A DNA stretch of 17,236 bases from Enteropsectra breve (lineage: Eukaryota > Microsporidia): NCBI GenBank assembly GCA_024243835.1, contig JALPMN010000546.1, positions 1 to 17,236 of the forward strand, written 5' to 3'. The position numbers and the translations under genes are program-made. The notes beneath the pieces were generated by a model, which did no database searches, had not been told where the DNA came from, and worked only from the letters and a program-made list of their open reading frames with translations. Positions 1-14,683 of this stretch are shown here, one piece after another; within the stretch, counting starts at the first letter, position 1; each line of letters begins with the position of its first letter.

Positions 1-2320
1 CCATATTACGTCGCAAAAAATAATCTTTAATCTTTGTCTCAAAAAACTCAGTAGACAAATGATGAGGGTTGGCATGTATTTTAAAGCGAATAATTAGCTT
101 TTTATCATTAAGATTTTTGACCCATTCATATTTGGGATTAAAGAAATAGTTATAATACATCCAATATAATGCCATCTTAGCGTAAAAGCAAAAGTCATAT
201 GATATTACCTCCTTTTCATTCTCTTCAACAATAAAGCTGTCAGTATTAACGTTTACAACCAAAGTATTTCCTTTATATAGTCGAAAGAGGAGCTGCAATG
301 AAGCACTTTCTGCCATATTTCTTTCAAATTTTGAAAGTGTTATTTCAAGACACTCATTATAAGAAGCAACAGATCTAATAGCATTCAATGCGCTAGTTTC
401 GGGTTTATATGCTATCCGATGTGATATGATGAGCTTTGAAACGTTATAAGCCGCACTTTTCGACCTATTCTTGTCATCCCATAGACATATTGTAGATGGC
501 TCATTATAAATCTTTGTCCTTATTTTGAGAGAATTCTCACGCGCATCCATGAAATACGGCTCTGGAAGTACAGTTAAAGAATTCAGCAGCAAAGGCTTTT
601 GTCTTGGAACTAAAGTCTTAGTATACTTCAAAAGTCTCTCGCGAGTTTCTTTTTCAGCTTTATAAGTATCAAAGTTGCTGTTGTGTCTGGTCAAATAAAT
701 TGTAGCATCAGTTAGATCTTCTAGAAGGCGGCTCTCTGCCACAAAAGTAACAATATCCTCAGTTCCCACAAAATGAATGACTGAGTTCCTCAAATTGTTG
801 TATTCATTAAACTCAGGAAGCGAATTATATCCTACGTTTGCTTCTTTGCTTATTTTATGTTTGTCATCATAAATTGAGTTTCCGGTTTCGTTAGCAAAAA
901 GATTGAAAAGAAAACTCTGATCTGGCCTGCAAAAGATCCCCCGCATGCCGAATTTTGCAAACTTTTGCCGCTTCAAAAGCATTCTAGTTTTCAAATCAGG
1001 GCTGTTGTAACCATAAAGTATAAAGCCAGTCAATCTGCCACAGATTTCTTCGTTTTCAGAAAGAAAAGTGTGTATGAACGTATCAAAAAGCGTGCACTGT
1101 TCGTTAAGGTTCATGCAGTTATATTCGGTTTGTTGTATATTCAGAAGGGATATTTCCTTGATCTGAGGAAGAAGCTCTAAAATTGCACAAAATATCTTGT
1201 CGAGATTTTCAGTTATCATTTTGGGTATTACAGCCTCTAAGTGAAATATGCTCTTGGTATTACGATTTTCTTCATTAAACAGCGTGAAGAAGAACTCTGA
1301 GTCAAGTTTTTCCTCTGAATTCGTGCGGAGGGAAATATTGCCTTCGCCCGCATCTTCAAACCTAATTCCATCGAGCGCTTTAACAAATTCTATTGAAAAT
1401 CTACCTTTACTTGATTTTCTTACTTTCATTATAAGAAACAGCTGTTTTATAACAGGTATGTTGTTAAACAGAGATGGTATTGTTTTAAGGTCAACTACTG
1501 GTGCACCTTTCTTCTTTGCCTTAGGGTCAATACATTTTCTCTTAAGTTCGGTCAGGGCAGTTGTAAAGAGGGTTTCCTTATATATTTTGTGCAATTTTTG
1601 TTTTTTGAGAAACCAATACAAATTAAGCCCGAAAATGATGTCACTTTTGATTCTAAAGTGCAAGTCTTTTCCTTCGGCATTTTTAATAAAAATATCGCTT
1701 ACTGAATCTTCAGCAAATTTTAACTCCTCATAATAATTGCATATCATTTGTGCAAGTTCAGGAGTTGCTTTTAATTTGGATTTGGGGAAAAGCTGGTGTC
1801 GCATATCAAATATAAGCCTTAATACATCACAATCATAGCCTTTAAGATACAAGCTTGATAGCAGTTTCTCTTTTGGCTTATCATTTTGTTCTTTACTGAG
1901 GCCAAGTGATTCTCTGATTCGTCCAGAATAATTCAGCGTACTTTCAGAATATTTGTAACTGATATTTTTTATAGCTTGAGTATATTGCTGTTCAAGCGAA
2001 TGCATATGGCACATTCTGTGGGCACTTTCCTTAGTTTTGAAATCCTCAGGTTTTGACTTGAAGCATTTGGCTAGGGGTATGTACCCCTTTTTATATCTGA
2101 CTTCAAGAATATCACAGAGTGTGTTGGACAACATAATTTCGGATAGTAAAAATTCTTCAGAGTCGAATCTAAAAGCATCCCTAGAGGACATTGCAACTGC
2201 ATTGTCCGAATCTTCCATGCGGATTATCTGCACCGATAAATCATTTTCGAGTGGATTCGTGAATACATTAGCAGTGAAGCTTGCTGTAACGATGCGCATT
2301 GTTATACAAAAGAGTTTCAT
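1..2320 (-). CDS. Large hypothetical protein, 3' end beyond window (773 codons present)
   Basis: I followed one uninterrupted minus-strand reading frame from an ATG at 2318-2320 to the window edge. It gives 773 complete codons and no stop, so the C-terminus is missing. The start is supported by CCC directly before the ATG and an AAAAATTTA run just upstream. The N-terminus (MKLFCITMRIVTASFTANVF) is mildly hydrophobic but interrupted by Arg9, so it is only a weak signal-peptide candidate. The rest is a soluble-looking, Lys/Glu/Leu/Phe-rich protein. A stretch around residues 330-400 has regularly spaced Leu/Ile (for example LELLPQIKEISLLNIQ), which is faintly reminiscent of leucine-rich repeats. 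No catalytic motif is apparent. Codon choice is more AT-rich than in the housekeeping genes to the right, as is common for lineage-specific microsporidian proteins. I do not recognise the family; the reading frame itself is convincing. Confidence 0.85.
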   Translation of the reverse strand, partial: MKLFCITMRIVTASFTANVFTNPLENDLSVQIIRMEDSDNAVAMSSRDAFRFDSEEFLLSEIMLSNTLCDILEVRYKKGYIPLAKCFKSKPEDFKTKESAHRMCHMHSLEQQYTQAIKNISYKYSESTLNYSGRIRESLGLSKEQNDKPKEKLLSSLYLKGYDCDVLRLIFDMRHQLFPKSKLKATPELAQMICNYYEELKFAEDSVSDIFIKNAEGKDLHFRIKSDIIFGLNLYWFLKKQKLHKIYKETLFTTALTELKRKCIDPKAKKKGAPVVDLKTIPSLFNNIPVIKQLFLIMKVRKSSKGRFSIEFVKALDGIRFEDAGEGNISLRTNSEEKLDSEFFFTLFNEENRNTKSIFHLEAVIPKMITENLDKIFCAILELLPQIKEISLLNIQQTEYNCMNLNEQCTLFDTFIHTFLSENEEICGRLTGFILYGYNSPDLKTRMLLKRQKFAKFGMRGIFCRPDQSFLFNLFANETGNSIYDDKHKISKEANVGYNSLPEFNEYNNLRNSVIHFVGTEDIVTFVAESRLLEDLTDATIYLTRHNSNFDTYKAEKETRERLLKYTKTLVPRQKPLLLNSLTVLPEPYFMDARENSLKIRTKIYNEPSTICLWDDKNRSKSAAYNVSKLIISHRIAYKPETSALNAIRSVASYNECLEITLSKFERNMAESASLQLLFRLYKGNTLVVNVNTDSFIVEENEKEVISYDFCFYAKMALYWMYYNYFFNPKYEWVKNLNDKKLIIRFKIHANPHHLSTEFFETKIKDYFLRRNM

Positions 2321-2333
2321 GGGATAAATTTTT
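2321..2333 (-). promoter_or_regulatory. CCC + AAATTT start-associated signal of the large hypothetical gene
   Basis: On the minus strand this reads CAAAAATTTATCCC and abuts the ATG at 2320. It has the same architecture as the stretches before the starts at 6368 and 9955. Confidence 0.6.
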
Positions 2334-2612
2334 GTTGAAAATTTTAATTTGATTATCAATGCCGTTAATTATCAAAAAATGAGCAATATTCTAAAATGTT
2401 ACAGTGCATCATAAACTTTAGATAATTCTTATTCAACTGGCTTTACATTTTTATAGTTTCGTTAATTATCTCGTATGACCAATGGGACCTTGTGCAGCAG
2501 TAAAGGGGAATTTCACTCTTTATGATATGTGATAATTGATAATTATAAGGGGCTTTATAATCGATTCACTATTAGTGTTTATTAATTAAATTACAAAGAT
2601 AGTTTAAATAAA

Positions 2613-4587: not shown

Positions 4588-5841
4588 TCAATATTCTATT
4601 TCGGTCTCAAGCCCGTCTTTTATCACAGCGTATCCAATAAGTCTCCAGTTGTTTTTTACTTTTCTGCTGATAGCAATTCTTTCTCCAGCCTCACAGCAGC
4701 ATGGCTTGTTAAGATCAAACACGGCAGTATCAGCTTTTATCTCGCTTGCTATGCAGCCGACTGTTCTGCTTCCCACGTTCAGCAGAAGATTTTCATTTTC
4801 TTTCAGATCTTCCTTGGACTGCGCGACTGTCTTCTCAAACAGCGTAAATTCTACCGTTATTCTGTAGTAAATAGGGGGGAGTGATCCCTTCAGTCCCATC
4901 ACCATTCCAACGAGCCAGTTCGACTTGCAGTAGCTTGGATCCATCTCGGTTCCAACTCCAATAAGCCCACCTGGCACCACTTCATCGAGCGCACATTTCT
5001 CCGCCTTTAAGCTTGTGATCGTTGTGACAAATGGCTGACAAATAAACTTTCCATTTTCTTTTCTCACAATCCCTGGCTTGACTTCAATTTCATCGCCAAC
5101 TCTTAGCACACCCGCAACAAGCGATCCACCAATGACACCTCCATTGAGGTCTTCGACCTTTGTTCCCGGCTTGTTTATGTCAAAGGACCTGATAATTACC
5201 ATTTTCGGCTTGGCCTCCAAGTCTCTTTCAGGTACTGGAATTGAATTAACGATAAAATCTAAAATCGCGTCTATATTGACATTGAACTGTCCAGATGCCG
5301 GGACAATTGGCCCGTCTACATTTGAGGTCTTCAGAAAGTCTTTTATCTGGTCGTACTGTTCAAGCGCCTGCTCTTTCTTCACAGTGTCAATCTTGTTCTG
5401 AATAATCACAATATTCTTAAGATCCATTATTTCCAGAGCAAACACGTGCTCGGTGGTCTGCGGCTGAGGGCAAGGCTCGTTTGCAGCAATCAGAAGAATA
5501 GCGGCATCCATAATGGCGGTTCCACTCAGCATTGTTGCCATCAGCACATCGTGTCCTGGGCAGTCCACGAAACTCACGTGCCGTATTAGCCGCGGCTGTA
5601 CACTGCAGCTTGCACACTTCTTTTCAGATATTCCGTACTTTTGTGGCCTTGGGCAGTCGCACTCGTAGATCTTCGCATTCGCATATCCCAAATTGATCGT
5701 AATGTTCCTCTCGAGTTCAGCCTTGTACTTGATTGTGCTTGTTCCACTGATGCAGCGGACAATGGTTGTTTTGCCATGGGCTACATGCCCGATTGTTCCG
5801 ATATTTATGGTGGCCTGTTTACTTAAATAATATTTGTCCAT
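4588..5841 (-). CDS. GCD11: Translation initiation factor eIF2 subunit gamma
   Basis: A 417-aa GTPase, the core of eIF2, which carries Met-tRNAi to the 40S subunit as a ternary complex. The G1 loop is GHVAHGKTT (residues 18-26), the family's AHGKST/T form. A zinc-knuckle insertion with Cys61, Cys63, Cys76 and Cys79 surrounds the PRPQKYG segment, typical of eIF2 gamma and not of EF-Tu. G3 is DCPGHD (93-98) and G4 is NKID (149-152). Domains II and III follow (KPGTKVEDLNGGVIGGSL; VGDEIEVKPG; GGLIGVGT). The protein is shorter than the yeast (527 aa) and human (472 aa) proteins because the N-terminal extension is missing, as expected for a microsporidian. The frame is open up to a TTG at 5880, but the first ATG at 5841 has CC before it and AAAAATTTTTG further upstream, so it is taken as the start. 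Confidence 0.97.
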   Translation of the reverse strand: MDKYYLSKQATINIGTIGHVAHGKTTIVRCISGTSTIKYKAELERNITINLGYANAKIYECDCPRPQKYGISEKKCASCSVQPRLIRHVSFVDCPGHDVLMATMLSGTAIMDAAILLIAANEPCPQPQTTEHVFALEIMDLKNIVIIQNKIDTVKKEQALEQYDQIKDFLKTSNVDGPIVPASGQFNVNIDAILDFIVNSIPVPERDLEAKPKMVIIRSFDINKPGTKVEDLNGGVIGGSLVAGVLRVGDEIEVKPGIVRKENGKFICQPFVTTITSLKAEKCALDEVVPGGLIGVGTEMDPSYCKSNWLVGMVMGLKGSLPPIYYRITVEFTLFEKTVAQSKEDLKENENLLLNVGSRTVGCIASEIKADTAVFDLNKPCCCEAGERIAISRKVKNNWRLIGYAVIKDGLETEIEY

Positions 5842-6355: not shown

Positions 6356-6367
6356 AAATTTTTACCC
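6356..6367 (+). promoter_or_regulatory. AAATTTTT + CCC start signal of the TrxR-like gene
   Basis: AAATTTTTACCC ends exactly at the ATG at 6368. It is the clearest example of the motif in the window and supports expression of this odd gene. Confidence 0.6.
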
Positions 6368-6805
6368 ATGCCCTCCAGCAGAACACTCATCATCGGTGAC
6401 ACGCCAGGAACATACATCTGTGCCATATACATATTCACGGCCAATCTTCCAGTCAAGATTATCAAAAAACCCACCGTGCTGAGCTACAAGTGCACATTCG
6501 TTCCAGGCTGCCCAGGCACCACTAAAGAGAAGTTTAATAATGATACTTTCCTCCAGGCCAAGAACATGGGCATAGAAATAGAAGAGAATGAGAAGCCCAC
6601 AGTTGAATATAAAAACGGAAAATACATTGTGAACAACGAGGAATATGAATATCTGGTGCTGGATACTGAAGATGCTGCCATAGAAAAATCTAAAAATCTA
6701 TTTTTTATTGAGAAAGAGCTTATTTATGACGAGGCGATAGAAGTGGCTGGTGCTGGCTGCAAAGTAGCGTTCCACATAAAAGAGGCCATTTCTAATTCTG
6801 AATAA
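6368..6805 (+). CDS. Thioredoxin-reductase-like FAD-domain remnant lacking the NADPH domain and CxxC
   Basis: A 145-aa protein whose two ends resemble the two halves of the FAD domain of low-Mr thioredoxin reductase. Residues 5-32 (LIIGDTPGTYICAIYIFTAN) match the first beta strand, glycine loop and helix (compare VTIIGSGPAAHTAAIYLAR). Residues 44-52 (FVPGCPGTT) match the ENFPGFP turn. AKNMGIEIEE (64-73) matches QSTKFGTEII, and the 78-98 region matches the following beta hairpin ending in DAIILAT. Residues 119-141 (IYDEAIEVAGAGCKVAFHIKEA) match the last helix ([23 protein letters not shown]). Between them the whole NADPH-binding domain and its redox CxxC are absent. The second loop glycine and the GD motif that contacts FAD are also changed. 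Such an enzyme could not reduce thioredoxin in the normal way. The frame is intact, has a strong start signal and an AATAAA at the stop, so it is probably an expressed pseudoenzyme or flavin-binding scaffold. The homology is my reading by eye. Confidence 0.7.
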   Translation: MPSSRTLIIGDTPGTYICAIYIFTANLPVKIIKKPTVLSYKCTFVPGCPGTTKEKFNNDTFLQAKNMGIEIEENEKPTVEYKNGKYIVNNEEYEYLVLDTEDAAIEKSKNLFFIEKELIYDEAIEVAGAGCKVAFHIKEAISNSE

Positions 6806-6806
6806 A
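6801..6806 (+). terminator. AATAAA overlapping the stop codon
   Basis: The TAA stop of the TrxR-like gene (6803-6805) lies inside AATAAA. Confidence 0.5.
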
Positions 6807-7059
6807 AGGCTTCTGATTAAATTCTCCTTTTTAAATAAAACTATGAGGGTTATTTTTAAATTATCAGGAACTCTTTTATTTCTATTCATTAAATCAGTCG
6901 CAATATTTTCCAACCCTTCTATATATGGTTTACATTACTGATACAAATAAAACGCTTTTGGCGGAGATAATATTAAACAAAGAGAGCTAGTAAAATACTA
7001 AAATCCCTCGATCTTTTTTTCAAAATAATAGGTCATAATAATTTAGCAAACATTTTAAT

Positions 7060-8538
7060 CTATAGCTTGGCAAGCATTTTTGATACCTCATTTTCGTATT
7101 TTTCTCCTCCTATGATAACTCGTTTATTCTCATCTTTGTAGTAAACTTGGTTTTTGCTTTCTAGGAATCTCAGCACCAGAAGATAGTCCTTCAGATGCAT
7201 GAAGTCTGAATACAAAATTCCATTTGTCATTTTAATCCGCTGCTGCTTGTTCTCCCATATGGCAATCTGGCTGGCGATGGCCCCGGGAACCTCCACAGCC
7301 TTCTCTTCCAGGTACTGGATGATCTGTGATGCCGAGATGCCTCTGCTGAATGCCTTACACACGGACTCCTCCGTCAGGTCCGCCTTTATCATGTTGGGCA
7401 GCGAATACACACACTCTGTGAAAAGACCCAGTATGGATATTTCATAGGCCTCGTTCGTGTAGGCGTATATTTTATAGTTTGTTTCAATATAAATAAATTT
7501 GTCGGAATTGGAATTATCTCCAAAGAGCAGACTGCTATTTACAACGGCATACAGATAAGAGCTATTAGCTTCCGCCTCCTCATACAGCTCTGCGCTATTT
7601 AAGTTTGTTCCACCATTTATTTCAGCGCCGTGTGCCTCATCCAGGCTCTTAACAATCATGCCGTTTTCCTCCAAATAAAGCCTGTTGTAGGCAACATTTC
7701 TCTCTATCTCTTCTATGTCATTTGTGTTTAACAGGCAAATAACGCCTATTGTATCCAGAAAAGAGTAAATAGGACTCCATGATGCTATTTTAAAGATGCC
7801 ATTTGAAGACTTGAGGGATATCTCCATGAGAGCGGCCAAAATACCGTCCAGGCTGCAATTTTCATCGCCTTTCGCTTGTTCTCTCGTTATTTTAATCTTC
7901 CTATTTTGCACTAATAGCTCTATACCCCCGATAATAAGATCCCACAGCTGTTCAGAGGCTCCTTTCAAAAGAAACTCAAAGCCCTTGTTCGTTATTTCTC
8001 CGAAAATATCAATGTAATTTTTAAAAGTCTGAATTTCTCGCGAAAGGAAAAGACTGCTGATATTTTTGTCGATTATAGCCTTTTTAAAGAGACTAAGCTT
8101 ATTTTCAGCCAGCCTCAGATGAATGCTGTTGTTTCTTGTATTTTTATTGCGGCTTGTCTGCATTTTCATATCCATCTTGTTGAAATCTAAATTAATTTCG
8201 AGAAAATTCTCCACACACTGCTGCTCAATGAATATTCTGTCTATCGATGGAAGGCAAAAGCCTGAGATAAGCGATTCTCTGAAATCAGCCGATAAAGAAA
8301 GCATGCTGTTGCTGATAGAAACGAGGCGTGCCTCCATGAGATACGCAAGAGACTCTTTGATGTTGGCGATCTCCCTGTAGTTCGATACGTGAATATCCCT
8401 CAAAATGAGATCAAAGATGATTCTTGTCGCAATGGCATCAAGGAACTTTAGGAGACCGAGGGCAAAATACTCGTTCTTGAATAAAGCACCAGTATTTTCT
8501 GGGGTGATGAATTTAAGAAGGCCAATAGAAGCGGGCAT
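7060..8538 (-). CDS. TFB2: TFIIH subunit 4 (Tfb2/p52)
   Basis: A 492-aa homologue of the core TFIIH subunit Tfb2 (human p52). In model systems it anchors and stimulates the XPB/Ssl2 translocase and binds Tfb5, and it acts in RNAPII initiation and nucleotide excision repair. The diagnostic middle block GFEFLLKGASEQLWDLI (about residues 186-202) matches p52's GFQFLLLDT..QLWYFM. The C-terminal block FIYIETNYKIYAYT (348-361) matches the FIVVETNYRVYAYT-type signature. GISASQIIQYL (400-410) and AIWENKQQRI (426-435) follow. The far C-terminus is the region that pairs with Tfb5 in other eukaryotes. Length is close to the human protein, with little reduction. The frame extends to a GTG at 8550, but the first ATG (8538) has CCCC 7-10 nt upstream, so I start there. 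TAG is followed at once by ATTAAA. Confidence 0.93.
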   Translation of the reverse strand: MPASIGLLKFITPENTGALFKNEYFALGLLKFLDAIATRIIFDLILRDIHVSNYREIANIKESLAYLMEARLVSISNSMLSLSADFRESLISGFCLPSIDRIFIEQQCVENFLEINLDFNKMDMKMQTSRNKNTRNNSIHLRLAENKLSLFKKAIIDKNISSLFLSREIQTFKNYIDIFGEITNKGFEFLLKGASEQLWDLIIGGIELLVQNRKIKITREQAKGDENCSLDGILAALMEISLKSSNGIFKIASWSPIYSFLDTIGVICLLNTNDIEEIERNVAYNRLYLEENGMIVKSLDEAHGAEINGGTNLNSAELYEEAEANSSYLYAVVNSSLLFGDNSNSDKFIYIETNYKIYAYTNEAYEISILGLFTECVYSLPNMIKADLTEESVCKAFSRGISASQIIQYLEEKAVEVPGAIASQIAIWENKQQRIKMTNGILYSDFMHLKDYLLVLRFLESKNQVYYKDENKRVIIGGEKYENEVSKMLAKL

Positions 8539-8562
8539 CTGTCGGGGCACAAAATTTTTAAA
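8539..8562 (-). promoter_or_regulatory. Start-associated signal of TFB2
   Basis: On the minus strand TTTAAAAATTTT is followed by GTGCCCCGACAG and then the ATG. The CCCC is 6-9 nt from the start. The GTG within it is the first codon of the longer open frame and is not needed. Confidence 0.5.
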
Positions 8563-8887: not shown

Positions 8888-8892
8888 TTATT
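8887..8892 (-). terminator. AATAAA containing the stop of the Arf-like gene
   Basis: On the coding strand AAAAAATAAAGG spans the TAA stop (8888-8890), so stop and putative poly(A) signal coincide. Confidence 0.45.
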
Positions 8893-9304
8893 TTTTAACA
8901 TTTTTCTTTATAAACTGCTTGAAGGCCGCCAGAATCTGCGCCCTGTTGGTCCCGTCATAGGAAACCACCGTGGTGTTCTCATCACTCTGCTGTTTGGACT
9001 GTTTGTTCATCAGGACAAAGAAGATCGGCTTGTCTGAATCAACAGCCTCATCGACATCGGAAATGCAAATCATTCCATGGGATAGTTGGGCATGGAGAGC
9101 AGCTATTTCCGAGAGCCCGTCCGTGAGATCGCAGTCCTGGAACAGAAGGGTCTCTCCGGCCTGGTTCACTGAGTACTCATTGTATTTCTTCTCACTCGTC
9201 TCAATTTGGAATACATCCTGAAATATCCTGTTCTTGTCCTCTGTTTTTCCTGTTGCAAATAAAACTATGGGTTTCCTTTCGCCAAAGCAGCAGCAGTTCA
9301 TCAT
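8888..9304 (-). CDS. Small protein resembling a degenerate Arf/Arl- or SR-beta-type GTPase
   Basis: A 138-aa protein. The order and spacing of its strands suggest a reduced Arf-family GTPase. KPIVLFAT (11-18) is a beta strand leading to GKT (19-21). ETLLFQDCDLTDGLSEIAALHAQ (about 51-73) sits where Arf has the WDxGGQxxxRxxW strand and switch II. SHGMICISDVDEA (75-87) resembles the TDxLIYVIDSADR strand. KPIFFVLMNKQSKQ (92-105) resembles PxLIFANKQDL. The C-terminal VVSYDGTNRAQILAAFKQFI corresponds to the last strand and helix. However, the first P-loop glycine, the switch II GG pair and the Asp of NKxD are all missing, so canonical GTP binding is doubtful. The N-terminus MMNCCCFG offers three adjacent Cys that could be palmitoylated; there is no Gly2 for myristoylation. 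The frame opens at a TTG (9340), but CCCTTA stands before the ATG at 9304. The gene is sound; the family is tentative. Confidence 0.6.
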   Translation of the reverse strand: MMNCCCFGERKPIVLFATGKTEDKNRIFQDVFQIETSEKKYNEYSVNQAGETLLFQDCDLTDGLSEIAALHAQLSHGMICISDVDEAVDSDKPIFFVLMNKQSKQQSDENTTVVSYDGTNRAQILAAFKQFIKKNVKK

Positions 9305-9330
9305 TAAGGGAGCAAAAATGATTAAATTTA
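9305..9330 (-). promoter_or_regulatory. Start-associated signal of the Arf-like gene
   Basis: On the minus strand TAAATTTAATCATTTTTG is followed by CTCCCTTA and the ATG at 9304. This decides the start in favour of the tandem ATGATG over the upstream TTG. Confidence 0.5.
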
Positions 9331-9375
9331 TCAGGGACAAGAGAAGTGGGTAATATAAGCAAAAATCAGGCCAAG

Positions 9376-11194: not shown

Positions 11195-11812
11195 ATGAAG
11201 AAATACTTTTTAAATTCGTCAACAGATCTCCTCAAAAGACTGGCATTTATACAAAAGTATTCGAGCACCGTGCAGATTGGCCATAATTTCCTATACTGTC
11301 CGCTCATTCAGATAAACATGGAGGCATTTTGTGACTTCAGTGGCACGATGCCCACTGCAGAATTTGCAGAGCTAGTAAAAAATACAGATTTTTTCTATTC
11401 CGATGGGAAGACGGTCAAGTACGAGTACTATAGAGAGACCGGGAAGAACAAGCTGCTAATACAGCGGGACATTTCCCTAGTAAACGCAGAGTACAACATT
11501 GAACTCTCCTCAGCGATCGCAAATATAAAAATACCAGATCTAAATGTAATCACAAAAGATGAAATTGAGTTTACAGCGCATCCAAACAAGATTGTAATGA
11601 GGAGCCATGGATACATTAAAACGCAGTGCGTACTTCCCGCACAGGGCATAGATATGAAGGAGCGCATAGTGCGTAGAGTCCGGCCAAAGGATCTGAAGAT
11701 CATCGAAGATCTTGCTGGCGAAAAGGTTTTGAGTTTTTTTAGAGACTTTATGGTGTGCTACAAATTTGAAGATGCAGCAACCACCGCTGTTATAATTAAA
11801 AACTTGGAATAA
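11195..11812 (+). CDS. Hypothetical protein, 205 aa
   Basis: The ORF starts at an ATG preceded by CGCCCAGAT, with a TTTTTTAAA run further up, and ends in TAA with ATTAAA 10 nt later. The first 40 residues are basic and aromatic. From MEAFCDFSGTMPTAEFAELV (about residue 42) the protein looks like a compact alpha/beta domain: GKTVKYEYYRETGKNKLLIQ, IANIKIPDLNVITKDEIEFT, KIVMRSHGYIKTQCVLP, and a conserved-looking basic block RRVRPKDLKIIEDLAGEKVL near residues 160-179. Codon use becomes visibly more GC-rich after Met42, so an internal start there is possible, but that ATG lacks a C-run. The PTAEFAELV stretch faintly recalls sliding-clamp strands, though not enough to name it. No catalytic motif, signal peptide or membrane segment is seen. 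Confidence 0.75.
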   Translation: MKKYFLNSSTDLLKRLAFIQKYSSTVQIGHNFLYCPLIQINMEAFCDFSGTMPTAEFAELVKNTDFFYSDGKTVKYEYYRETGKNKLLIQRDISLVNAEYNIELSSAIANIKIPDLNVITKDEIEFTAHPNKIVMRSHGYIKTQCVLPAQGIDMKERIVRRVRPKDLKIIEDLAGEKVLSFFRDFMVCYKFEDAATTAVIIKNLE

Positions 11813-12416: not shown

Positions 12417-13829
12417 ATGAAGACATTTGATCTAATTGTTAGATTTGCCAAGATTCTGTTTCTCATGCTTGCAGCCGTGGGACTGGCAAAAGTAGCACTG
12501 GTCGCTGTCTATGGCTGGTGGAAGATGGACCTCAACTACGCTCCTTCCTACATCTACAACTGGCGTCTTTCATACATTGACAATGATCTTCCAAAGAAGA
12601 CTTTTGCAAGAATCAAGCTTGACTCTCAGGCAAAAAATGAAACTTTGTCAAAATATGTGAAGGATGTCCAAGAAGGAAACACTGATTCTAAGTCAGGTGC
12701 TATCAATCTACCCCAAACCAATGGCAATACTTTGGCATATCCCCACTACACGTATGGATTCCCCGATACATTTGTTCTCGGCCCTGCTTTTACATGGACC
12801 CTTTTAGATGGAGAAGAGAATCTTTACAAGGCAGATATGAAATTCTTGAGCCTAAGAAATGACTACATTCAGAATTTCTATTGGAACAGACTTCCAGAAT
12901 TAGATCTTGAATTAACTGATGCGGAAAAGAAAAAGGAAGAAGAGAAGTATAAGGCTCTATCAGCAAAAGACAAAGCAGACGCAGACGCCAAAGAAGTTTC
13001 TCTAAAAGCAGCAGATATATTAGAAAAGCCAGAAGGATTTAATCGTCAAATTCTTGCAAAATCTAAGAGAACAGAGAAGCCAATCTTCCCTCCACGTTAT
13101 GCTCATTTTGCATATCTTAAGAATCAAAACGAGGTGACTGAATGGGCAATGAAGCATACTGAAGTTAATTACTTAAGCTTTATGGAGCTGTGCCAGTACT
13201 TAACACAAAATACGGAAAAACTTGTAACCCGTGAAGGTGAACAGTATAAAATGGTAGAAGGTTTATCAGCGTTAGTTATGGATTTTATAGGACGTTCATC
13301 AATATTTAATGGTTTGAATATCACTACAGATAGTGTAAACGCATGGCTCTCAAGAATCGCAACACTGAAATTTTCTTCTGCTGATGTCCAGATTTTGAAC
13401 AGAATTTATTTCTATTTCCTCTACACTCACAACTCAATGAAACTTTCAACTGCTGCTTCAGAAGATCTACCAGAAGACTTAAAAGCCACTCTTAAACTTG
13501 CTGAAGCAAGCGAAACAGAGCATGATGAAGCAATAGATGGATCTAGCGAGGAAGAGAAAAAAACAAGAAAGGATAATGAGAGGAGAAAGGCCACTAACAA
13601 GATTATCAAGGCACACCAGGCCAGAACTGAACAAATGTTCAACCAGTTCAGTTTAATGTTCGCAAGGGCTTTCATCACTGATGAAAAGTCACAGATCAAC
13701 CAGTCTGCATTCTCCAAGTTCTACAACTACAAGTCATACGGAGTACCACAGGTCTACAAGAAGGATCCAAAGGATTACTTTGCAAACGAGCGTAATGCTT
13801 TATACAATTCTGTTATAGGAACTGCATAA
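12417..13829 (+). CDS. Hypothetical N-terminally membrane-anchored protein, 470 aa
   Basis: The protein begins with a basic N region and a hydrophobic helix (about residues 7-33: IVRFAKILFLMLAAVGLAKVALVAVYGWW is one continuous segment). This predicts a signal anchor or uncleaved signal with the bulk of the chain on one side of the membrane. The remainder is polar and aromatic with only one Cys (259). It has two strongly charged stretches, 166-204 (Asp/Glu/Lys/Ala, coiled-coil-like) and 364-400 (ETEHDEAIDGSSEEEKK and following basic residues). Aromatic repeats of YAPSYIYNW and YPHYTYGF type lie near residues 41-49 and 109-115. Codon use at both ends favours AAG, CTC, TTC and GTC, suggesting good expression. 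I do not recognise the family. A microsporidian endomembrane, spore-surface or ADP/ATP-independent structural protein is possible but not shown. AATAAA follows the stop by 6 nt. Confidence 0.88.
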   Translation: MKTFDLIVRFAKILFLMLAAVGLAKVALVAVYGWWKMDLNYAPSYIYNWRLSYIDNDLPKKTFARIKLDSQAKNETLSKYVKDVQEGNTDSKSGAINLPQTNGNTLAYPHYTYGFPDTFVLGPAFTWTLLDGEENLYKADMKFLSLRNDYIQNFYWNRLPELDLELTDAEKKKEEEKYKALSAKDKADADAKEVSLKAADILEKPEGFNRQILAKSKRTEKPIFPPRYAHFAYLKNQNEVTEWAMKHTEVNYLSFMELCQYLTQNTEKLVTREGEQYKMVEGLSALVMDFIGRSSIFNGLNITTDSVNAWLSRIATLKFSSADVQILNRIYFYFLYTHNSMKLSTAASEDLPEDLKATLKLAEASETEHDEAIDGSSEEEKKTRKDNERRKATNKIIKAHQARTEQMFNQFSLMFARAFITDEKSQINQSAFSKFYNYKSYGVPQVYKKDPKDYFANERNALYNSVIGTA

Positions 13830-14300: not shown

Positions 14301-14333
14301 ATGGATTATGCAGATCAGCGGAGGTTAAGATGA
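14301..14333 (+). promoter_or_regulatory. Overlapping upstream mini-ORFs before the 117-aa protein
   Basis: Two ATGs precede the main start. One (14301) encodes 10 residues and ends in TGA at 14331-14333, overlapping the main ATG at 14330 as ATGA. The second (14308) encodes 6 residues and ends in TAA at 14326-14328. A scanning ribosome would meet both first. A GGAGG lies at 14320-14324. Confidence 0.45.
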
Positions 14334-14683
14334 AAAAGAATAAGGTAAAAGAAGAGGCTGGTGCTCAGCAGAAGGACAAGCAACTCACGAAGAAAGATAT
14401 TGCTCTGATCGATGGTGCGTTTAAAGAAACTGATATGGACAAGAAGGCCCTGAAAAAGTTCTGTACAGAAAACCAAATTCCACACGCCGCGGCTCTTGAC
14501 TATTATGATTTGAATAAGCTTGATGGGGAAAGTGCATATGAGAAACTTAAGATGATTAATATCAGGCTTAAAAAGATCGGTGAAGAATACGAGAGGGGGA
14601 GGGAAGAGTGGCGAACGGAAATGCAGGCCCTGCTGGATGAAATATCTAAGGATAGTGAGAACAGCAAGAACCAGTGGAGCTGA
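14330..14683 (+). CDS. Hypothetical small charged protein, 117 aa
   Basis: A highly charged protein with no membrane segment. The N-terminus is Lys-rich (MKKNKVKEEAG). A helical middle follows (KKDIALIDGAFKETDMDKKALKKFCTEN in two parts, residues about 22-48). Residues 67-108 (SAYEKLKMINIRLKKIGEEYERGREEW and onward) are predicted by eye to be a long amphipathic or coiled-coil helix. One Cys only. Start: the longest frame in phase, with GGAGG 6-10 nt upstream as the G-run element. The unusual upstream mini-ORFs leave the start less certain than elsewhere. No family is recognised; a small chromatin, ribosome-biogenesis or complex-bridging protein would fit the composition, but that is only a guess. 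Confidence 0.7.
   Translation: MKKNKVKEEAGAQQKDKQLTKKDIALIDGAFKETDMDKKALKKFCTENQIPHAAALDYYDLNKLDGESAYEKLKMINIRLKKIGEEYERGREEWRTEMQALLDEISKDSENSKNQWS

Follow-up and report, generated by a model that had tools for sequence, protein, structure and literature searches.

A 145-amino-acid (aa) open reading frame (ORF) of the microsporidian Enteropsectra breve, intact from ATG to TAA at 6368–6805 on the forward strand of a 17,236-nucleotide contig (the whole stretch analyzed, called the window below), is on balance best read as a selected, probably expressed gene for a pseudoenzyme derived from thioredoxin reductase (TrxR). The protein would be catalytically dead and free of cofactor, and would act by contact with another protein. 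A first-pass annotation of the window had proposed a TrxR-like half-enzyme that might still bind flavin; translation confirmed the frame and profile comparison bore out the derivation, while the flavin-binding part of the proposal did not survive. Homology and motif evidence indicate that the ORF descends from the flavin adenine dinucleotide (FAD) half of low-molecular-mass (low-Mr) TrxR, although the features that define the TrxR family place it outside that family.

Descent was evaluated with a profile of the FAD half built from 116 TrxRs (four of 120 were removed by length). The ORF scored 14.0 bits in hmmsearch, a value reached by none of 20,000 shuffles (18,420 scored), and in a set of 411 ORFs, drawn from 30 sequences of which some overlap (247 kb), the true TrxR alone outscored it. 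With hhalign, the same profile gave a probability of 92% (E = 6.5e-7) over 130 columns running to the last residue, well above chance similarity, and the full-length TrxR profile gave 50.5% (E = 1.6e-4); none of 150 shuffles did as well in either comparison. Since the limits of the FAD-half profile were set with the ORF already in view, the full-length profile gives the more conservative values. A profile of the domain that binds reduced nicotinamide adenine dinucleotide phosphate (NADPH) did not match (probability 0.1%, equalled or bettered by 121 of 150 shuffles), and the translation holds no CxxC, in agreement with the first-pass annotation on both absences. An untargeted phmmer search of the PDB returned 22 matches, 12 of them TrxRs (best E = 0.012) and two of the lipoamide-dehydrogenase type (best E = 0.01); four of the five alignments printed were to TrxRs and showed two collinear stretches, at the start and in the terminal helix. 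In addition, tblastn with the Pancytospora philotis TrxR matched 6368–6703 (E = 9e-4). Sub-profiles of 52 presumed microsporidian TrxRs and of 56 other sequences scored the ORF at 12.3 and 15.2 bits, respectively (eight of the 116 TrxRs fell outside both, and entries without a name were sorted by rank alone), and a two-residue gap after the first helix of the presumed microsporidian rows (half of 54 shown) is absent from the ORF. These two observations hint at an old duplicate or a transfer as its origin and are too weak to use.

Compared with low-Mr TrxRs (NTR/TrxB; TIGR01292), including the complete copy in the same genome, the ORF keeps the order of first strand, first helix, PGxP turn, meander, last strand and terminal helix, but it has 145 rather than 310 residues, altered FAD motifs and no NADPH domain or CxxC, and about 30 residues past the hinge are gone, as is the GGQL loop. 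Columns were counted in a MAFFT alignment of 53 of the 120 TrxRs (A1), because hmmalign misplaced the N-terminus. The surviving parts are 18–28% identical to these 53 TrxRs. Twelve of the 50 FAD-half columns conserved in at least 90% of them are kept in the ORF, 28 are changed and 10 deleted, while 24 of 45 hydrophobic columns are still hydrophobic and nine deleted. Relative to the E. breve TrxR, roughly residues 119–273 are missing, and about 13 residues around GGQL are also deleted upstream of the PGCPG turn. The hinge of barley NTR2 lies at Val125 and His255/Glu256 (PMC2733882); with these residues placed on the sequence by hand, the large deletion starts near the hinge and runs about 30 residues into the second FAD segment. 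The cut is therefore not exactly at the natural domain boundary, where the first-pass annotation had put it. An assembly deletion is unlikely to be the whole explanation, since the surviving parts have themselves diverged and motifs are lost outside the missing block.

The first strand and helix are TrxR-like, the strand as described at first pass, but the glycine loop reported with it is degenerate: residues 10–15 (6395–6412) read GDTPGT by alignment and column count, where microsporidian TrxRs have GSGPAA. The PGCPG turn (residues 46–50, 6503–6517; PGFPxG in TrxR) and the terminal helix (residues 120–144, 6725–6799) are both present in A1 and in the right order, as had been claimed. The helix starts YDEAIEVAGAG, against YKQAVTAAGTG in the genome's own TrxR, and is also placed there by the predicted model (residues 123–144) and the PDB alignments. 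In place of VIIATGA, the ORF has a strand YLVL followed by DTED (residues 95–102, 6650–6673) in our reading of the model and the FAD-half hhalign alignment; A1 displaces this stretch by a few residues. In place of GLFACGDV stands NLFFIEKE (residues 110–117, 6695–6718), in which GD is lost; this placement was made by eye from both sequences together with a model strand, the GLFACGDV columns being empty for the ORF in A1. With YKQA/YRQA changed to YDEA as well, each of the five cofactor motifs examined (GxGxxG/A, GGQL, ATG, GD and RQA) has been changed or deleted, with single residues such as G10, P13 and A123 kept. Eight residues hydrogen-bond FAD in barley NTR2 (Ser18, Ala21, Ile27, Gln52, Asn61, Val94, Asp293, and Ala302; PMC2733882), and by hand placement two of them, Ile27 and Ala302, are kept in the ORF. 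Given these losses and the missing CxxC, the protein is unlikely to bind flavin in the canonical way or to transfer electrons. The cysteines of the protein are at residues 18, 42, 48, and 131. Cys42 and Cys48 lie near the PGCP turn, where the TrxR rows shown in A1 have no cysteine, and could pair or bind a metal.

A model built with AlphaFold2 from the TrxR alignment has strands at residues 95–98 and 111–113 and a helix at 123–144, with the fold core predicted to be intact. Its best Foldseek match was TTHA0370 of Thermus thermophilus (2cvj), solved as a "thioredoxin reductase-related protein" (E = 8.4e-7; 173 columns, model residues 3–145, target of 180 residues). TTHA0370 belongs to a different lineage, is 17–20% identical and 35 residues longer, and judging by its chain length would also lack the NADPH domain. 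Because it aligns with model residues 3–145, it is probably an earlier known TrxR relative of roughly single-domain size, which makes the first-pass statement that no protein of this layout had been described doubtful. Other structural matches were FFTR (6gnd), GliT/HlmI/DepH (4ntc, 4ntd, 4jn9), and AclR (7br0), which, in part by their entry titles, are TrxR folds with changed chemistry; their chains of 278–318 residues are of full TrxR size, and the 145-aa protein is far shorter. The single paper found for TTHA0370 mentions it in a halogenase context, and none of the papers listed by literature searches on TrxR pseudoenzymes, or on TrxRs lacking the NADPH domain, was relevant.

In codon use, start signal and open frame the ORF looks like a selected gene, though these signs are not proof, and the picture fits the first-pass impression that the ORF is expressed. 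Its codon log-odds score is 0.274 per codon, above the median of 0.189 for 86 ORFs of at least 200 aa and the maximum of 0.269 for shadow ORFs (n = 194). Intergenic segments of 435 nt (n = 545) had a median of -0.16, a 95th percentile of 0.052, and a maximum of 0.435. These codon statistics were computed without the overlapping loci L001–L007. The G+C content is 41.6% in the ORF against 31.7% in intergenic DNA, and the chance of 145 stop-free codons in unselected DNA is about 1e-5 to 9e-5. Directly 5' of the ATG stands AAATTTTTACCC, comprising an upstream signal AAATTTTT (6356–6363, forward strand) and a CCC motif immediately before the start codon (6365–6367), comparable to that of Encephalitozoon cuniculi genes (PMC2803860). 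An AAATTT-like signal 5' of a CCC-like motif is a published start signal of microsporidian ribosomal-protein genes (PMC2803860), and the ORF carries both. In this genome, an AAATTT-type motif (AAATTTT or AAAATTT) no more than 40 nt from the ATG, combined with CCC no more than 12 nt from it, was found for 17 of 83 genes (three of the 86, with less than 40 nt upstream, were left out) and for 9 of 2,714 intergenic ATGs. An AATAAA lies over the stop codon (6801–6806), with a second copy at 6834–6839. The hexamer is over-represented in the window (60 copies, where 200 shuffles averaged 39), so its position at the stop is weak evidence by itself. AAUAAA is the published polyadenylation signal of E. 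cuniculi (PMC2803860), and the excess across the window fits that signal.

The separate full-length TrxR that the first-pass annotation had suggested looking for in related genomes is present in the ORF's own genome. Contig C99 encodes a complete TrxR of 310 aa with CAVC, 100% identical to the NCBI entry for E. breve thioredoxin reductase (P0002), and thioredoxin-domain genes lie on contigs C66 and C67; the 145-aa protein would thus not be needed for thioredoxin reduction. A TIGR01292 search of the genome listed C99 (340.9 bits) and C107, with no match inside the window. The curated cut-off of 343.45 bits is a harsh test when used alone, since the intact C99 TrxR itself falls just below it. 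C107 (G000:C107, L003:1480-2418) encodes a 312-aa FAD/NAD(P) oxidoreductase with PF07992 and PF00070 and weak TrxR-family scores, which by eye we take to be of the adrenodoxin-reductase (Arh1) type. We propose that the 145-aa protein adopts a small apo-Rossmann alpha/beta fold and retains the ancestral core of first strand, helix, second strand, middle helix and meander, last strand, and long C-terminal helix. It would bind no FAD in the canonical way and move no electrons, and would contact another protein while the C99 TrxR does the redox work. In the TrxR dimer of Escherichia coli, contacts between the two FAD domains make up two thirds of the interface, which makes a direct role as partner of TrxR possible.

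We also looked for relatives, in particular for an orthologue with the same deletion. A word-based search of 5.8 billion proteins (E ≤ 10; 19 candidates) recovered the ORF itself and no relative; by our estimate, the word filter could overlook an orthologue whose identity is about 40% or lower, so absence of an orthologue is not established by this search. Searching the genome with the 145-aa protein (E ≤ 10) returned the self match only, and PHROGs gave two matches only, both of unassigned function (E = 0.17 and 0.31). As a positive control, the same database yielded 44 TrxRs at 55–66% identity (P0003–P0046) among the best 120 of 7,999, three of them with microsporidian names (Glugoides intestinalis, Pancytospora epiphaga, and P. 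philotis). A profile search (A2) scored 7,997 proteins, 7,973 at E ≤ 10, and its best 120 entries were examined. A motif filter picked 15 of the 119 other entries listed there as having both ends without CxxC or GGGD. Five of these 15, of 178–202 aa (P0134, P0147, P0182, P0209, and P0236), keep GxGxxG/A, GGQL, GD and RQA, and two keep ATG. Four of these (P0134, P0147, P0182, and P0236) are internally deleted metagenomic TrxR-like entries of 178–186 aa in which an N-terminal half is followed by the C-terminal tail; unlike the ORF, they have intact GxGxxG, GGQL, GD and RQA, with ATG in P0134 and P0182 only. They are sporadic, come from contigs of 630–696 bases or have none listed, and may be assembly products. 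Vittaforma corneae VICG_00568 (P0122, 135 aa), from a microsporidian in the same group, at first seemed to share the layout but was rejected as an orthologue, as it ends at residue 134, before the CxxC, and has no C-terminal tail. It shares 60% identity with residues 1–134 of the E. breve TrxR and is either a truncated TrxR or the product of a broken gene model.

Several results weigh against reading the ORF as a functional TrxR derivative. Neither BLASTP of the genome's own TrxR against the ORF (not significant) nor tblastn with it (no match at E = 10) detected the similarity. PF07992 reached 12.2 bits (E = 0.12, residues 5–91) against a gathering score of 26.1 bits, and the best NCBIfam match, a TrxR model at 12.5 bits, is far under its cut-off. 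The top Pfam match was the poxvirus domain PF12410 (rpo30_N; 19.4 bits, E = 0.001, residues 52–97), itself below its gathering score of 25 bits, and eight of the 22 phmmer PDB matches are unrelated (six to urokinase receptor, one to a tetratricopeptide repeat protein, and one to a poxvirus RNA polymerase subunit). The C-tail profile alone was equalled or beaten by 71 of 20,000 shuffles, and the faulty hmmalign alignment kept 8 of 50 conserved columns, a count reached by 2 of 1,000 shuffles. AlphaFold2 from the single sequence was unusable (predicted local distance difference test score of 31.9), and the model used above follows the TrxR alignment from which it was built. In an archaeal apo-TrxR, loss of FAD disorders residues 36–68 and disrupts the dimer interface (PMC6262447); the shortened part of the 145-aa protein probably overlaps this region, by position only. 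Function itself is argued from codon use, start signal and open frame, no orthologue having turned up in the word-based search.

That the ORF is an unrelated microsporidian orphan resembling TrxR by chance is barely plausible. The missing BLASTP match, the PF12410 match and the unrelated PDB rows would suit such an orphan, but the profile evidence is collinear at both ends, none of the 20,000 and 150 shuffles matched it, and an untargeted PDB search returned TrxRs in 12 of 22 rows. The main rival is a recently dead gene, a decayed TrxR paralogue without function whose frame is open by chance. We regard this as unlikely, while giving it real weight: the ORF is found in one genome only, has diverged fast and has lost most catalytic and cofactor residues, and a gene whose function was lost only very recently would still pass the stop, codon and start-signal tests. 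Against decay stand 145 stop-free codons in spite of large divergence, a codon score above the gene median and an intact start signal.

Two further alternatives differ from the reading we favor in what the protein would do. It could be a small flavoprotein, perhaps resembling TTHA0370, with an altered mode of binding FAD or another nucleotide, a proposal that is quite improbable; the Foldseek match to 2cvj and the predicted intact core are in its favor, but none of the GxGxxA, GGQL, ATG, GD and RQA motifs is intact and six of the eight NTR2 positions are lost. A regulatory partner, pairing with a full TrxR subunit through the FAD-domain interface to give an inactive or altered heterodimer, is more doubtful again. 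A complete TrxR is at hand in the same genome, but the region whose disorder disrupts the archaeal dimer probably overlaps the shortened part of the 145-aa protein.

The ORF is flanked by genes for eIF2gamma (4588–5841, reverse strand, from the first ATG) and Tfb2 (7060–8550, reverse strand). Five of nine further window ORFs scanned had no Pfam match at E = 0.001, and would be microsporidian orphans or fast-evolving proteins. They lie at 2–2359 (reverse strand, 786 aa, open), 8888–9340 (reverse, 150 aa), 11195–11812 (forward, 205 aa), 12417–13829 (forward, 470 aa), and 14330–14683 (forward, 117 aa). The window is contig C55 of a 155-contig, 3.96 Mb assembly of E. breve, a member of the Enterocytozoonida that infects nematodes (PMC10393165).

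As a single orphan gene, this ORF has modest reach. More specifically, we hold it possible, with slightly less than even confidence, that it is a lineage-specific TrxR pseudoenzyme that has lost both NADPH and FAD chemistry and is kept by a genome-reduced parasite, under an AAATTT/CCC start signal, as a cofactor-free Rossmann binding module. Genome-reduced parasites tend to shed genes, and a stripped redox enzyme retained beside its working copy would, if this is true, be a case of a flavoenzyme fold reused without its cofactor.
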